DNA from: a virus
DNA length: 22,323 nucleotides
Strand: one strand, 5' to 3'
IMG/VR virus record: IMGVR_UViG_3300006802_000652
Coordinates: 1-22,323 of that record
Made by a program: the position numbers and the translations under genes. This document shows, piece after piece, positions 2,423 through 8,722 of the stretch (the first letter of the stretch is position 1; every line of letters starts with the position of its first letter). The notes beneath the pieces are model-generated. The model ran no database searches, was not told the DNA's origin, and saw only the letters and a list, made by a program, of their open reading frames with translations.

Positions 2423-4690
2423 ATGGCATTAAACATTACACATATAAAAGAAAAATATCCTGAATATGCTAATATGTCTGATGACGATGCGGCTAAACAG
2501 ATACATAGCAAGTTCTATTCAGATATGCCTTATGAGAATTTTAAGGCTAAGATAGGAATGACTGCGCCTGTAGAAGCAACTACAGAGAAGCCTGCTGAAG
2601 CTGAAATGACCACTCTTGAGCGTATGGGACTTGCTCCCGGCGGCTACACTCCTGAAAGAGGGAGGGAGCAGATTCGTAGTCTAGTAGCACCACCTGTACA
2701 GATTGCAAAAGGAGCAGTTCTTGACCCATTAATAGGCGCTACACAGCTTTTTGGGCGTGTGGCTGAAGATGAAGAGGGTCAACAATCGTTTGATGAGTTT
2801 GTAAGATGGTATAAAAAGAACATTGAAAAAGTAACAGGTGAAGGGTTTTCAGCAGGCGAGTTGGCTGGTGCAATGGTTTCACCTATTAATAAAATATTTC
2901 CCGGCGGTGGAGTATCTACAAGTCTTCCTAAAACCATTGGTCGTAGTTCTGTTATGGGCGGCGCACAGGCAGTTTTACAGCCGGTAACATCAGATGACTT
3001 TTGGGCAGATAAACAACTTCAAGCAGGTATTGGTCTTGCGCTTGGAGGTGTTATTCCTTTAAGTGTTGTTGGTTTGGGTAAAATTAGCGATATTCTTTCT
3101 AATGTAAACTTAACCACTAGAGCAAAACAACTTGCTGTTTGGAAATATCTAAACGGTATGCTTGGTGAAAACCCAGGCGATGCTATAAATAAATTAAGGA
3201 ACGCACAAGAATTAGTAGCAGGAAGTAAACCTACAGCAGCAGAAGTGTTAGGTGAAACTCCAGCAGGTGTACGTATAGGCGCTGAACAAGCTAGACTTGC
3301 AGCTAAACCTGCTGTTGGAGCAGAGCCTTCACCAACATCATTAGAGTTTGCTCAGAGAGAAATGGAACAACAAGCTGCTCGTAGGGCTGCTTTAGAGCCT
3401 ATCGCTGCTCCAAGAGGTATGACTGTAGAAGGTTTAGAAGCAGGACGGGCAGCACAAACACAGGCGTTGCGCGACCAAGCACTAGCATCTGCTAACGTGT
3501 ATGGTGAAACTGCTCCAAGCATAGCACAGAAGGCAGCGCAGAACGAGAGGTTTGCTCAGCGCACTTTACAGGCTGAAGGAAAAGCCCTGACTGAAGAGGC
3601 TCAGGCTATAGAACGTGCTAACAACTGGTCTCCTGTTCCGGGTATGCCTCAGATTTCAGGACGTTATAGCCCTAATATGGAAAGGGCACTAGAGAATAAA
3701 CTAGCTGCTGGTGAAGCTAAAGAAGCAGGTGCTGTTTTAAAAGCAAACCGTGATTTCAGAGTGGCTCAACTTAAGAGTTTGAATGACGAGGGCTACTATC
3801 CTTTGCAACCACAGGGCGCTGTCAAAGAAATTAACACAATTATGAACTCTCCGGGTCTAAGGGCAAAAGATGATGTTGTGTCTGCTCTAAGTAAAGTTAA
3901 AGAAAAAATTACAGCTTTAACTGATGAGAATGGTTTTATCAATAGTCAAGATTTGTATGCAATCAGGCAAGATATTGGTAACGATATTAGAGTGGCTATG
4001 GGTGATAAAGCAACAGGTCAACAAAACTTGATTGCTAAACTAGAAAAGCAAATTCAAATACAAATGGATGCTGCTATTAACAAAGCCGCCGGTGATACCA
4101 CTTGGAGTCGTTACTTAAAAACTTATACCAAATACTCTGACAGAATAAATAGAATTAAACTAGGTAAGGCTTTTCAAGCTAAATTAACAAGTGCTGTTGG
4201 TATTGAACAGGCTGGTGCATTTGCAGAGGCTGTTAGAGATTCAGCACCACTTGTACAAGCAGCAACAGGTATACGTAGGGATGCTTCTCAAGTCCTGTCT
4301 ACAAAAGAAATGGACATTCTTAAGCGAGTACAGGCTGACTTAGCTAGGTCTGTTAAGGCAAAAGAAGTGGCAAACAGAATGAGCCAAAGAGCGCCTGAAA
4401 CAATTTCCCAACAGCGCATGGCTAATTGGTTAGATAGGGGTGTAACTATAGGTAAAGCGTTAATAGATGCACTACAGAGAGGCAACCAAGCTAAAGTGGA
4501 CGAACAGTTAACACGTTTAATGTTAAATCCACAAGAGATGGCTTCTTTCCTTGAAGTTATACCTAAGCAGAGTTTTCCACAACTTGTAGGTTCTATATTT
4601 AAGGTTGGGTCGCCAAAAGCAAGGTTAGCGTTTTACCAGCGATTTGGAGTTGGAGTAAGTGCAGAAACAGCAGAAGGCGCTGCTCAGTAA
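2423..4690 (+). CDS. Large putative internal virion protein (755 aa)
   Basis: This is the last and longest gene of the rightward virion cluster, with AGGAATAGAC before its ATG. Residues 1-45 (KEKYPEYANMSDDDAAKQIH then SDMPYENFKAKIG) form a short domain seen at the N-terminus of many phage internal-virion and virion-peptidase proteins. A Gly-rich hydrophobic stretch at about 197-220 could insert in a membrane, and the rest is mostly long Ala/Gln/Glu helices. It corresponds in position to T7 gp16, but at 755 residues it is about half that length and I see no transglycosylase motif. It ends just before a strong terminator. A DNA-ejection role is inferred. Confidence 0.5.
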   Translation: MALNITHIKEKYPEYANMSDDDAAKQIHSKFYSDMPYENFKAKIGMTAPVEATTEKPAEAEMTTLERMGLAPGGYTPERGREQIRSLVAPPVQIAKGAVLDPLIGATQLFGRVAEDEEGQQSFDEFVRWYKKNIEKVTGEGFSAGELAGAMVSPINKIFPGGGVSTSLPKTIGRSSVMGGAQAVLQPVTSDDFWADKQLQAGIGLALGGVIPLSVVGLGKISDILSNVNLTTRAKQLAVWKYLNGMLGENPGDAINKLRNAQELVAGSKPTAAEVLGETPAGVRIGAEQARLAAKPAVGAEPSPTSLEFAQREMEQQAARRAALEPIAAPRGMTVEGLEAGRAAQTQALRDQALASANVYGETAPSIAQKAAQNERFAQRTLQAEGKALTEEAQAIERANNWSPVPGMPQISGRYSPNMERALENKLAAGEAKEAGAVLKANRDFRVAQLKSLNDEGYYPLQPQGAVKEINTIMNSPGLRAKDDVVSALSKVKEKITALTDENGFINSQDLYAIRQDIGNDIRVAMGDKATGQQNLIAKLEKQIQIQMDAAINKAAGDTTWSRYLKTYTKYSDRINRIKLGKAFQAKLTSAVGIEQAGAFAEAVRDSAPLVQAATGIRRDASQVLSTKEMDILKRVQADLARSVKAKEVANRMSQRAPETISQQRMANWLDRGVTIGKALIDALQRGNQAKVDEQLTRLMLNPQEMASFLEVIPKQSFPQLVGSIFKVGSPKARLAFYQRFGVGVSAETAEGAAQ

Positions 4691-4727
4691 ACTAAAAAGG
4701 GGACTACTAAGTCCCCTTCTTTTTAGT
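4691..4727. terminator. Bidirectional Rho-independent terminator between convergent operons
   Basis: GGGGACT (4699-4705), loop ACTA and AGTCCCC (4710-4716) form the core hairpin. It is flanked by ACTAAAAA (4691-4698) and TTTTTAGT (4720-4727), so a T-run follows the stem on both strands. It sits between the end of the rightward virion genes and the end of the leftward replication operon, and the last leftward stop codon (4723-4725) lies inside it. Confidence 0.93.
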
Positions 4728-4926
4728 CAAAAATCTCCTCGTCTACTTCACCAAAGTCCCCTAGGTAGATGGCGAGTAGGGGAAGTCGGATAATAATGCC
4801 AACGAAAGCCGCCAGCGTCTTCTCCTCGTTCCCTTCCTCGTCCTCCACCCCGACAACGTGGATGATGTCCTCATTGTGTTCGATGTCAAAACCGAACCCG
4901 TTGCGGAAGTGAAAAACAATTCTCAT
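4723..4926 (-). CDS. Small hypothetical protein (67 aa), last gene of the leftward operon
   Basis: The chosen ATG at 4926 overlaps the TGA that ends the nrdJ reading frame (ATGA), typical coupling; an upstream ATG at 4953 would overlap nrdJ further and is less likely. The protein begins with beta-type residues (MRIVFHF), has an acidic middle (VEDEEGNEE), a hydrophobic segment FVGIIIRLPLLAIYLG that could be a buried strand pair or short membrane segment, and an acidic tail. No family is recognised. Its start is coupled to translation of the nrdJ 3' end, so the TAA inside nrdJ could lower its expression. Confidence 0.6.
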   Translation of the reverse strand: MRIVFHFRNGFGFDIEHNEDIIHVVGVEDEEGNEEKTLAAFVGIIIRLPLLAIYLGDFGEVDEEIFD

Positions 4927-5312
4927 CGGATGGGACACGCGCCGGTTGCACACTCATCTTCATCAAGACCAATAGTAGCCTCGTCAATCTGAGTGATTAG
5001 CGTGGTAGATGCCACCATCTTGTCATACTCCTCCTTGGTGATTTCCTCCAGAGGTGCTTGCTTAAAGCCATGCTCAGAGTGCAGAAGGAACGACAAACTC
5101 TTGTGGTTGTTCTTGTAGAACTTCTTCAGATACTTACGAATCTCAGGTAGTTCTTCCTTACGGTAGTAGATGGTGCAGGACACGCTGTTGTCGCTCCAGT
5201 CCTTCTGTAGCCGTTTAACAACCTCCAACTGGTCAATGGCAGTCATCTCAGCAGCCAACCGTGTCCCTTCGGGGAAGGCAAATGGGAATGACACCACAAC
5301 CGTGCTATGGTC
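4923..5312 (-). pseudogene. nrdJ: C-terminal part of NrdJ, separated from the main ORF by an in-frame TAA
   Basis: This stretch continues nrdJ in the same reading frame after the TAA at 5313-5315: NFDGS, stop, DHSTVVVSFPF. It encodes about 129 residues, including conserved class II C-terminal features and the tail ECATGACPIR with the two re-reduction cysteines (C-x4-C). I see no good ribosome site near the internal GTG at 5297 or the later in-frame ATG, so independent translation is doubtful. One base change (GAA to TAA, for example) would explain it. It could be a nonsense mutation, an assembly error, or stop-codon readthrough. Without this tail the enzyme could not be re-reduced normally. 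Confidence 0.8.
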
Positions 5313-6830
5313 TTAAGAGCCATCAAAGTTCATCTGATACTCCACTGGATACCCGTTCTGACGGCACACGTCCACCAAGGCATGATTTGAGGCTATACGG
5401 ATACGACGAATCATGTACTGGCTGTAGCCCGGATGTGCCCCCGGAGTGACTCCTGGGAGCAACGAGAGGGTTCCTGAAGGCTTAACAGTCGTTAGTTTGA
5501 TGGATTTGTTGAACTCATGCTTAGCACTGTACCACTCGTCATAAGTACGCAACTTTTTATACGCCTCTTCCAGCCAGCCCTTCTGCTCCTCGCTTGCCTG
5601 TAGGTAGCCAGTCACACCGATGCCCATACGCATATTCTTATGGACAATCTCTTCGGTTTCAGGAAGGTGGCAGGGCAGGTTCAGGCTGTGCTTGTTGATG
5701 CGGTATAGCAACGTGGCAATGTCCACAAACTCCTTGAACGAGGTGACGTTGGGCAGGTAGATTTCTGCCAAGCAGCACGTCTCGAAGTTTGCTAGACTTT
5801 GTTCAGCACAGGGGTTGTAGCCTTGTACGTCAGGGTCAGGGTAGCGAGTATCCCCAAGTCGCCCTTCCTTGCGTGACAGGCGCAGGTTAATCAAACCGTA
5901 GGGTTCACCCTTGCCCTCGTAGCCGTCCCAGAAGTACTCGTGCAGGTCGTTAATGTCGTTGCACACAACGCTGTTGTTGGACATAGCGCGCCAGCTAGGG
6001 ATGTTGCCCATGTCCCAGCGTTTAGCCAACAAATACTCCACATCATCAGGGTCACCAATGGCAATCTGTGCTGAACGGCGTACATTACCAGCCACCACAA
6101 TGGAGCCAATGGTGTTCATGATGTCTAGAGCATCCACCGGGCGTATCTTTTTACCCGCTCTTTTCGTGAGTACATCACTGATTTGGTCAATTCCTTGGCA
6201 AAGTATTTCAGCCCCTGAAGCAGTGCCACCGAAGCCCTTGATAGGCGCTCCCTTACCACGGATATTAATTGTGCTGTAGGAGAAGCTGCCGGGTTTATCT
6301 GAAAGGAATGCGGCTTTAAGAGTTTTGCCGAGTAGCTTAACCCACCCCTCCCGACTGTCAGGAACAATAAAATCAGCGTCAGTAGTGTCAAGCCGCTGAG
6401 GGCTAGTAAAGTGTAAATTAACAACAGGCAATTTGTCAACGTTCTTACGCTGAATATTGTATCCAACTCCGCTCCCCAACATCAATAAATCCATAGCCCA
6501 AGTGAATGGACGCACTGGGTCATCCACCACTGTAAACGCACAGTTCTGTAGCGAGGCAAGACCAAGGCGGTCAACAGTAGAAGTACCTAGCTGCCACAGA
6601 AAGCGCCCTGCGACAGTTCCTTTGAGTTCCAGTAGGTATTGTTCTAGTCGTGCTTGCTCTTCTGCGTCAAAGCCACAACCAAGTTGGTCATTAGCAGCCT
6701 TGACAACCCTCCCTACCGTGTCTTTGAATTCTTCTGTCGCACTGTTAGCATCACCTTCGTCAAGCCTCCGTGCATAGGTGCGCTTGTAAGTGATGTAGCC
6801 AATGCTTGACCACGGTGTTTCAATTGTCAT
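5313..6830 (-). CDS. nrdJ: Adenosylcobalamin-dependent class II ribonucleotide reductase, main part
   Basis: NrdJ reduces ribonucleotides to deoxyribonucleotides using a B12-derived radical and needs no second subunit. This ORF gives about 505 residues starting at the ATG at 6830, which has AGGAG 7 nt upstream; the TTG one codon earlier is less likely. Visible features are the first redox Cys in LQNCAFTVVDD (about 97), the NPCAEQ motif with radical Cys and catalytic Glu (about 341-343), and the partner Cys in ETCCLAE (about 352-353). The reading frame stops at TAA 5313-5315 and continues in frame to 4923, for a total of about 635 codons counting the stop position, close to other phage NrdJ. 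With ThyX it would supply dNTPs for replication. Confidence 0.93.
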   Translation of the reverse strand: MTIETPWSSIGYITYKRTYARRLDEGDANSATEEFKDTVGRVVKAANDQLGCGFDAEEQARLEQYLLELKGTVAGRFLWQLGTSTVDRLGLASLQNCAFTVVDDPVRPFTWAMDLLMLGSGVGYNIQRKNVDKLPVVNLHFTSPQRLDTTDADFIVPDSREGWVKLLGKTLKAAFLSDKPGSFSYSTINIRGKGAPIKGFGGTASGAEILCQGIDQISDVLTKRAGKKIRPVDALDIMNTIGSIVVAGNVRRSAQIAIGDPDDVEYLLAKRWDMGNIPSWRAMSNNSVVCNDINDLHEYFWDGYEGKGEPYGLINLRLSRKEGRLGDTRYPDPDVQGYNPCAEQSLANFETCCLAEIYLPNVTSFKEFVDIATLLYRINKHSLNLPCHLPETEEIVHKNMRMGIGVTGYLQASEEQKGWLEEAYKKLRTYDEWYSAKHEFNKSIKLTTVKPSGTLSLLPGVTPGAHPGYSQYMIRRIRIASNHALVDVCRQNGYPVEYQMNFDGS

Positions 6831-6981
6831 CAATTTCTCCTTCTAGTTTATCGAACTTATCTTCAATCACATCCATAAAAGCATTAACAATGTCCGAACT
6901 GTTCAGATTCAACACCTCGACAAGTGTTATTTCATCCAGCCGTTTTAGTTTTTCTGCTAGTTCTAGTATTGTTAGTGCCAT
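6820..6981 (-). CDS. Small conserved phage-type protein (53 aa)
   Basis: An ATG at 6981 opens a 53-codon frame ending with TGA at 6820-6822, overlapping the nrdJ start downstream and the phosphoesterase end upstream. The sequence is a short amphipathic Leu/Glu-rich helix pair (LELAEKLKRLDEITLVEVLN, then IVNAFMDVIED) with an acidic tail. Small proteins of this kind (LAEKL, then LDE, LVEVL, ending in acidic residues) recur in replication operons of marine and freshwater podoviruses. The function is unknown. The AGGAG used by nrdJ lies within its 3' end. Confidence 0.72.
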   Translation of the reverse strand: MALTILELAEKLKRLDEITLVEVLNLNSSDIVNAFMDVIEDKFDKLEGEIDDN

Positions 6982-7735
6982 AGGCTTCCTTCAAATAATG
7001 AATAGATATGGGCATCTCATCAAAAGCACCATTCACCACTTCATTCAGCATCCACACGCCCGACCAGCTACCGTTGGTTTGTGGGTTTAGATAGGATTCG
7101 TCATGCTGGTAGTAAATGCCACCAAAGATGCCAGTAACACGAGTGCCATCTGCTTTCCTGCTGTACGCTATTGCCCTGTCTTGGACGTGTCCCATAACAC
7201 AACTCATGTGCTTTTTAGCAAGTAACAGGTTAGGCGAAGAAACGGGACGCCCCATCACACCACTGGTGAAGTAGTGAGAATAAGCAATCCCGTCTATAAC
7301 TACCACTTCTAGGAAGTCATAAACCTCCCAGCCGTGTTTCTTTAAGTTGAAGTCATGAAAGCCAATCAACCCGTCCAGTTTCCTGTCACTGTTGATAGCC
7401 CGTAACACCCTCTCCTCGTGGTTGCCCATCAGGAACACTAGGCGGGGGTTCCATGCTTTTAACTTCCTACGCTTGCGGCGTTCAATCTCAGCCGTCACAG
7501 GAGCCATGAAAGCGTCCATAGCAGCGTTACCTGCCTTAACGTCCTCCATGTACGTCCTGCCCTCAAAAGCCTTCTTACCGACATCGTAAACAGACAGAGA
7601 GGGCATATCCCAGTGGTCGCCCAAATGGACAATCACTTCAGGACATTTGTCTGCTGCATACTTCCCCGCCCACTCCATGTGTTCATGGTTGTTACCGGGT
7701 TTGCACTGGGTGTCAGGAATTACTAAATGTCTCAT
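6932..7735 (-). CDS. Calcineurin-like metallophosphoesterase (267 aa)
   Basis: The metal-binding motifs of the calcineurin-like superfamily appear in order: DTQ (8-10), GDHWD (39-43), GNHEER (104-109), a histidine in YSHYF and GHVQD in the last third. Such enzymes hydrolyse phosphodiester or phosphomonoester bonds with a two-metal centre; relatives include SbcD/Mre11-type nucleases and small phosphatases. At 267 residues it is a single-domain enzyme without the SbcD capping domain. AGGAG lies 7 nt before the ATG, inside the end of the upstream gene. Its place between thyX and nrdJ suggests a role in DNA or nucleotide metabolism, but the substrate cannot be told from the sequence. Confidence 0.82.
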   Translation of the reverse strand: MRHLVIPDTQCKPGNNHEHMEWAGKYAADKCPEVIVHLGDHWDMPSLSVYDVGKKAFEGRTYMEDVKAGNAAMDAFMAPVTAEIERRKRRKLKAWNPRLVFLMGNHEERVLRAINSDRKLDGLIGFHDFNLKKHGWEVYDFLEVVVIDGIAYSHYFTSGVMGRPVSSPNLLLAKKHMSCVMGHVQDRAIAYSRKADGTRVTGIFGGIYYQHDESYLNPQTNGSWSGVWMLNEVVNGAFDEMPISIHYLKEAYGTNNTRTSRKTKTAG

Positions 7736-7952
7736 TCTGCTTCTCCTGCACGAGTTCTAGCCCTTCTTCAACACGAGCCACTACGCCATGATAGCCAGTG
7801 CTTTCTAGGAAGGTACAAAACTCTAAAAGGACACTGTGCCAGCGGATGCCATCAGGAAAGAAGCAAGCGTGGTCAATGTCCTTGCGTGGGAAGAAGCGGT
7901 CAACACTTTCAACCTCTTCGTCAGTGGTGTAACCAAACCGATAAGTCTGCAT
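7713..7952 (-). CDS. Hypothetical protein (79 aa)
   Basis: A 79-codon ORF starts at an ATG preceded by AGGAG 8 nt upstream, immediately after the thyX stop, and its 3' end overlaps the metallophosphoesterase start by 23 bp. The protein has mixed composition with several aromatic residues (YRFGYTT, RFFPR, CFFPDGIRWH) and a Glu-rich C-terminus. I do not recognise the family. The tight packing and good ribosome site make it a real gene. Confidence 0.7.
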   Translation of the reverse strand: MQTYRFGYTTDEEVESVDRFFPRKDIDHACFFPDGIRWHSVLLEFCTFLESTGYHGVVARVEEGLELVQEKQNETFSNS

Positions 7953-7955
7953 TGT

Positions 7956-8582
7956 TCATTCTCCTTTTTTGGTGAACAAAAGCGGGAAGTTCAATTGTAA
8001 CACAGAACGGCACTCTTCTGCAACCTCTCTGTGTTCTTTTTGTGTAGATGGGTCAGTACGGACGTCAATGTAGTGTAGCCATGAACGAATACTACCAGTC
8101 ATGTACATCCTACTGGTGGTTAGCCCCTCGGGTAGCAGCTTACGCGCCACCTCCTTAGCTATCCCATGCTCCAGTGCCCGTTCATAGACAAACCGACACT
8201 CCTTCAGCACCCTCTCCTGCATCTGACGCCACCACTCTTGCTGGTTCTTGTCGTTGATGGGGAGACTGTTCTGTCGGTTCTTATCATCCTGTGCCCTAGC
8301 CTCTGAAAACTCGTAGCCATCTGCCACTGCATATCGTTGGCTAAACTCTTGGAAGCTGAAACTACGATGCCGTAAGATTTGACGTGCAATATCTCGTGTT
8401 GTTTCAATCTCCAAACAGGCGTGTACCATCTCAAAAGGACTCCAATGCTTGTTACGCATCAAATATCCAATCAACTTCTCGTGTGGCGCATCAATCACTT
8501 GGTTGGCGGGATTACTTACCCGTGCCATGTAAGCAATGAGGCGTTCTCCATCAGGGGTTGACCATATTTCTCGTACTTTCAC
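7956..8582 (-). CDS. thyX: Flavin-dependent thymidylate synthase ThyX (208 aa)
   Basis: ThyX makes dTMP from dUMP using methylene-tetrahydrofolate, with FAD and a reduced pyridine nucleotide. The signature RHRSFSFQEFSQRY (residues 71-84) fits the ThyX motif RHR-x-x-S-x-N/Q-E-x-S-x-R-Y, and HWSPFEMV (46-53) is the conserved upstream block that contacts FAD. The C-terminal EGLTTSRMYMTGSIRSWLHY matches the substrate-binding region. The length of 208 residues is normal. The start is GTG at 8582, overlapping the upstream stop as GTGA. Together with nrdJ it lets the phage make dNTPs in a host that may lack ThyA or shut down synthesis. Confidence 0.97.
   Translation of the reverse strand: MKVREIWSTPDGERLIAYMARVSNPANQVIDAPHEKLIGYLMRNKHWSPFEMVHACLEIETTRDIARQILRHRSFSFQEFSQRYAVADGYEFSEARAQDDKNRQNSLPINDKNQQEWWRQMQERVLKECRFVYERALEHGIAKEVARKLLPEGLTTSRMYMTGSIRSWLHYIDVRTDPSTQKEHREVAEECRSVLQLNFPLLFTKKGE
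7994..8023 (-). promoter_or_regulatory. Possible sigma-70-type promoter inside thyX
   Basis: On the minus strand TTGCAG (8023-8018) is followed after 18 nt by TACAAT (7999-7994), preceded by TG at the extended -10 position (TGTTACAAT). It would serve the genes downstream of thyX. It lies in coding sequence, so chance is a real possibility, but the 11-mer TGTTACAATTG recurs exactly at the 16300 promoter candidate. Confidence 0.28.
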
Positions 8583-8722
8583 GCAGCCTCCATATAAAGT
8601 CCAACATTACCTAGTGCATAACCTAAGAAGGCGATGCCCAGCCCAGTTTGTCCCTTGATGAACAGGTCACCAGCGACAACCAAATATACCACACCAATGG
8701 TGGCGATTAACCAACTAGCCAT
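8579..8722 (-). CDS. Small membrane protein (47 aa)
   Basis: The ATG at 8722 opens a 47-codon frame ending with TGA at 8579-8581, overlapping the thyX GTG start as GTGA and the upstream stop as ATGGCTAG. Residues 4-19 (WLIATIGVVYLVVAGD) form one clear membrane helix, and residues 27-44 (GLGIAFLGYALGNVGLYM) form a second, Gly-rich one. Two-helix miniproteins like this are common in podovirus early and middle operons; their function is mostly unknown. The double overlap suggests its translation is coupled to both neighbours. Confidence 0.7.
   Translation of the reverse strand: MASWLIATIGVVYLVVAGDLFIKGQTGLGIAFLGYALGNVGLYMEAA

Follow-up and report, generated by a model that had tools for sequence, protein, structure and literature searches.

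What does a single in-frame TAA mean in a phage gene that is otherwise open from its start to its end? The question is raised by nrdJ in a virus record of 22,323 bases (IMG/VR class), the whole of which is called the window here. The window is probably a fragment of a larger genome, the nearest complete relative measuring 54.8 kb, and no near match to its whole length was found in the phage collection. The gene lies on the minus strand; it opens with an ATG at 6830 and closes with a TGA at 4925-4923, forming a frame of 635 codons (6830-4923) that is open apart from the TAA at codon 506 (5315-5313, appearing as TTA on the plus strand). The residues remain in frame on both sides of it (...QMNFDGS-TAA-DHSTVVVSFPFAF...), alignment with relatives reveals no frameshift in nrdJ, and the downstream part, hereafter the tail, holds no further stop or frameshift. 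The TGA of nrdJ overlaps the ATG of the next small frame as ATGA at 4926-4923 (Table 1). A preliminary description of this locus, which had reported a lone TAA without frameshift and a coupling of the downstream stop to the next gene, was therefore right in its coordinates and residues. Elsewhere in the window, a frame at 17919-18692 matches the PHROGs anti-restriction family phrog_7245 (E 8e-21).

Table 1. Features of the interrupted nrdJ frame and its downstream neighbour (window coordinates)
Feature	Coordinates	Strand	Remarks
In-frame TAA, codon 506 of nrdJ	5313..5315	-	Glu (GAA) in 13/13 closest relatives
Upstream part (head) of nrdJ, 505 codons from the likely ATG, plus the TAA	5313..6830	-	Contains the family-invariant Cys97, Cys341 and Cys352
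Downstream part (tail) of nrdJ, 129 codons plus TGA	4923..5312	-	Last barrel strands and helices; C-x4-C pair Cys627/Cys632
Next small frame, 67 aa, without PHROGs match	4723..4926	-	ATG overlaps the nrdJ TGA

Judged by its sequence, the nrdJ product is a monomeric class II ribonucleotide triphosphate reductase (RTPR), dependent on adenosylcobalamin (B12), and the class II identity given in the preliminary description is borne out by both pieces of the gene. The PHROG family phrog_367 (701 positions) is matched at 25-565 by the head and at 570-697 by the tail, and the RTPR profile TIGR02505 (724 positions) at 5-562 and 604-724, respectively. With contiguous profile matches on either side of one stop, the arrangement is not due to chance. 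The TIGR02505 scores of 277 bits for the head and 63 bits for the tail are to be read against a cut-off of 340 set for whole proteins; an intact relative of 95% identity itself scores 339.7 against the cut-off of 340.05. PF02867, PF17975 and PF21995 all score above their cut-offs in the head, as expected of the RNR barrel fold with its class II insertion domain. The active-site and turnover cysteines, namely Cys97, 341 and 352 in the head and Cys627 and 632 in the tail, are all invariant in the alignment of relatives, and the last two form the C-x4-C pair that had been noticed in the downstream part. The RTPR of Lactobacillus leichmannii (PDB 1L1L; TIGR02505; PHROG 367) resembles the window's protein in sequence over nearly its full length and in the conserved cysteines, including the C-terminal C-x4-C. 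It was the only solved relative found by sequence at E <= 0.001 and is also the best fold match, with a Z of 43.7 over 599 residues for the model of an intact relative. An RTPR would be expected to come from one uninterrupted frame; the gene in the present record differs in being broken at codon 506.

The place of the stop in the fold was determined on an AlphaFold2 model of the intact 95% relative (locus L092; pLDDT 88, pTM 0.89). In this model, codon 506 is the first residue of a strand (506-518), beyond which come helices 531-544 and 558-575, strands 553-556 and 578-583, and then the flexible tail that carries Cys627 and Cys632. In the window, the match to the Pfam barrel domain reaches position 5094, at about codon 579 and some 73 codons beyond the stop, and 17 columns that are invariant in 53 relatives also lie beyond it. 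The preliminary description had set the stop just before the re-reduction tail, and on this point it has to be corrected: the TAA falls inside the catalytic barrel, about 120 codons ahead of the C-x4-C pair, with core strands and helices between. Deprived of the end of the barrel and of the 17 invariant residues, the 505-residue product should be misfolded or dead as an enzyme, a predicted defect that goes beyond the loss of the re-reduction tail. Such predicted inactivity argues against the production of two useful enzyme forms.

The preliminary description had also proposed to compare the codon in related phage nrdJ genes. Three scans of IMG/VR provided 152 loci in which nrdJ could be aligned, representing 138 distinct sequences, 136 of which cover codon 506, and every one of these has a sense codon there. 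Residue 506 is Glu in 87 and Asp in 29 of them; the codons are GAA (55), GAG (32), GAT (27) and GAC (2), with scattered other sense codons in distant members. The 13 closest relatives (94-95% amino-acid and about 84% nucleotide identity) all carry GAA and show no gap around the position. At this codon the window departs from these relatives by one base, a G to T change in the coding sense. No other viral contig was found to contain the 18-mer bearing the TAA in an exact search, from which very near copies may be hidden. The nearest complete phage record, the circular 54.8 kb genome of Podoviridae sp. ctYwJ313 (MW202701), has its exonuclease, HNH endonuclease and RNR genes in a similar order and encodes a class II RNR with 73% identity over all 635 residues, but as one unbroken 635-residue CDS (6791-8698).

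The only stops found anywhere in the nrdJ genes of relatives lie far from codon 506, within an insertion at the catalytic cysteine codon of one locus (L124, IMGVR_UViG_3300020045_002306). This 174-base insertion (3330-3503), full of stops, sits in the codon of Cys341 and holds AGACTA and ATAGTC motifs; were splicing to join the T that opens the Cys codon to GT GCG GAA, the exon upstream would end with T and the insertion with G. The insertion is thus a candidate for a group I intron of very small size, with no match in Rfam up to E = 1. Two further loci, from MAGs labelled Omnitrophota (L159:4002-4975) and Neisseriaceae (L160:4005-4960), are each interrupted at Cys341 by an in-frame insertion of roughly 320 residues. 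With matches to intein-splicing domains (below the Pfam cut-off) and to LAGLIDADG endonucleases, the two insertions are likely inteins, located at the same site as the L124 insertion. An intron or intein at codon 506 was also considered and rejected, no relative having an insertion there and Rfam finding nothing in the window.

How long the stop has been in place can be approached through the selection acting on either side of it. In pairwise comparisons with close relatives, made at synonymous distances of about 0.7-1.4, dN/dS is 0.045-0.057 for the head (median 0.052) and 0.021-0.070 for the tail (median 0.048). The mean dN observed for the tail (0.046) is no greater than the value of 0.052 that the constraint of the head would predict, and the tail is not enriched in residues specific to the window (5/129 vs 11/505 in the head; Fisher p=0.34). 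Were the tail unconstrained, each 0.05 of neutral distance should bring it about 15 amino-acid changes and close to one new stop. Since tail and head share the same dN/dS of about 0.05, full selection has acted on the tail up to a very recent time, or does so still. We infer that the stop has been present for only a small part of the phage's branch (roughly 5% or less), that it is not real, or that it is read through with high efficiency. As a separate observation, tail codon 571 (5118-5120) encodes Phe, which is found in none of the relatives, nearly all of which have Asn or His.

A tail as constrained as the head would suit a TAA that is functionally read through or suppressed, so that full-length NrdJ would still be made, perhaps with the help of a suppressor tRNA in the host or phage. 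Residue 506 is variable among relatives (E, D, Q, L, S and others) rather than strictly conserved, and the protein would therefore probably accept a residue placed there by suppression. We nonetheless regard this reading as improbable. TAA serves as terminator for 6 of the 17 complete genes listed in the window (against 7 for TGA and 4 for TAG), no tRNA, and hence no suppressor, was found in the contig, which is partial, and the RNA downstream of the TAA shows no unusual structure (z = -0.14). Programmed readthrough would call for a conserved stop; with a stop in none of the 138 distinct relatives (136 covering the codon) and a sense codon in every close one, there is no sign of it. More doubtful still is the idea that the phage lineage retains the TAA and, by efficient suppression, makes full-length NrdJ, the stop then serving to switch dNTP supply according to the host. 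The preliminary description had listed among the possible origins of the stop a readthrough giving two enzyme forms, and this proposal finds no support, given a truncated form without the end of the barrel, no relative with the stop and no readthrough signal; of the other origins listed there, a nonsense mutation of recent date, variation within the population and an error of assembly are all retained. Its view that genome-wide recoding is unlikely holds: a genome reading TAA as sense was rejected, since TAA ends 6/17 genes and is seen nowhere else inside a gene that has comparators.

Class II RNRs made of two chains do exist, and both chains are required (PMC4520616). In Pseudomonas aeruginosa, the barrel is whole in NrdJa and the turnover part resides in NrdJb, a separate 229-residue protein (PMC4520616, PMC9669993). 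The window resembles this system in having the C-terminal turnover part of a class II RNR in a separate reading frame, and a 505-residue head assembling with a re-initiated tail could be imagined in the same way, the more so as GTG codons occur in frame 6 and 7 codons past the stop. These GTGs are not preceded by a Shine-Dalgarno-like motif, and no start signal for a second chain was found near the stop; internal re-initiation there was rejected on this ground. The break also differs from the known one: NrdJa retains its catalytic barrel (PMC9669993), whereas the window's frame is cut between barrel strands, with the barrel match extending to 5094 and core strands past the stop. The sole strong motif, an AGGAGG located 11 bases ahead of an in-frame ATG at codon 605 (5016-5035, minus strand), would fit a 31-residue peptide with the C-x4-C pair; close relatives have Leu instead of this Met, and the motif is probably a chance occurrence. 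Altogether, a working split enzyme is the least credible of the readings considered.

In our assessment, the TAA is very probably a nonsense change of one base, private to this record, very young and without a function of its own, in a phage nrdJ that is otherwise normal, even though an intact and constrained tail would equally be expected if efficient readthrough still made the full-length protein. We infer that the stop is not a maintained feature but arose recently or is an artefact. It would be either a real, recent mutation abolishing the RNR of the sequenced phage, or of a share of its population, or a one-base error of the metagenome consensus.

The chances are close to even that the consensus or the assembly is wrong at one base and that the phage's own gene is intact. 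A single base is concerned, there is no other lesion in nrdJ or in the neighbours that have comparators, the TAA occurs in no relative and the tail shows no relaxation. Moreover, G to T is a common direction among oxidation artefacts of sequencing libraries. Consensus errors are, however, rare at reasonable depth. That the nonsense mutation is real and recent, or a variant within the population, and leaves the phage without a working RNR of its own and dependent on the host enzyme, is a serious possibility of somewhat less than even probability. A phage RNR supplements the host's own enzyme, and such mutants must arise since 191 codons of the nrdJ frame are one substitution away from a stop. 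Against this reading, codon 506 is open in all relatives examined that reach it, and a dN/dS of about 0.05 denotes strong selection for a functional protein, under which a null allele should stay rare. Because a null allele would be unlikely to become the consensus of a gene under such strong selection, our judgement leans slightly towards the consensus error.

The genes of the window that have comparators are otherwise intact and contain no other interior stop, and the change at codon 506 is most likely of an ordinary kind that involves no new mechanism. The case carries a caution for the study of phage genes in metagenomes: a lone in-frame stop in a contig is not evidence of recoding or of a split enzyme unless it is shared by relatives or confirmed by reads. 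Should the stop be real and fixed, this phage would have just lost its own ribonucleotide reductase despite strong past selection to keep it.
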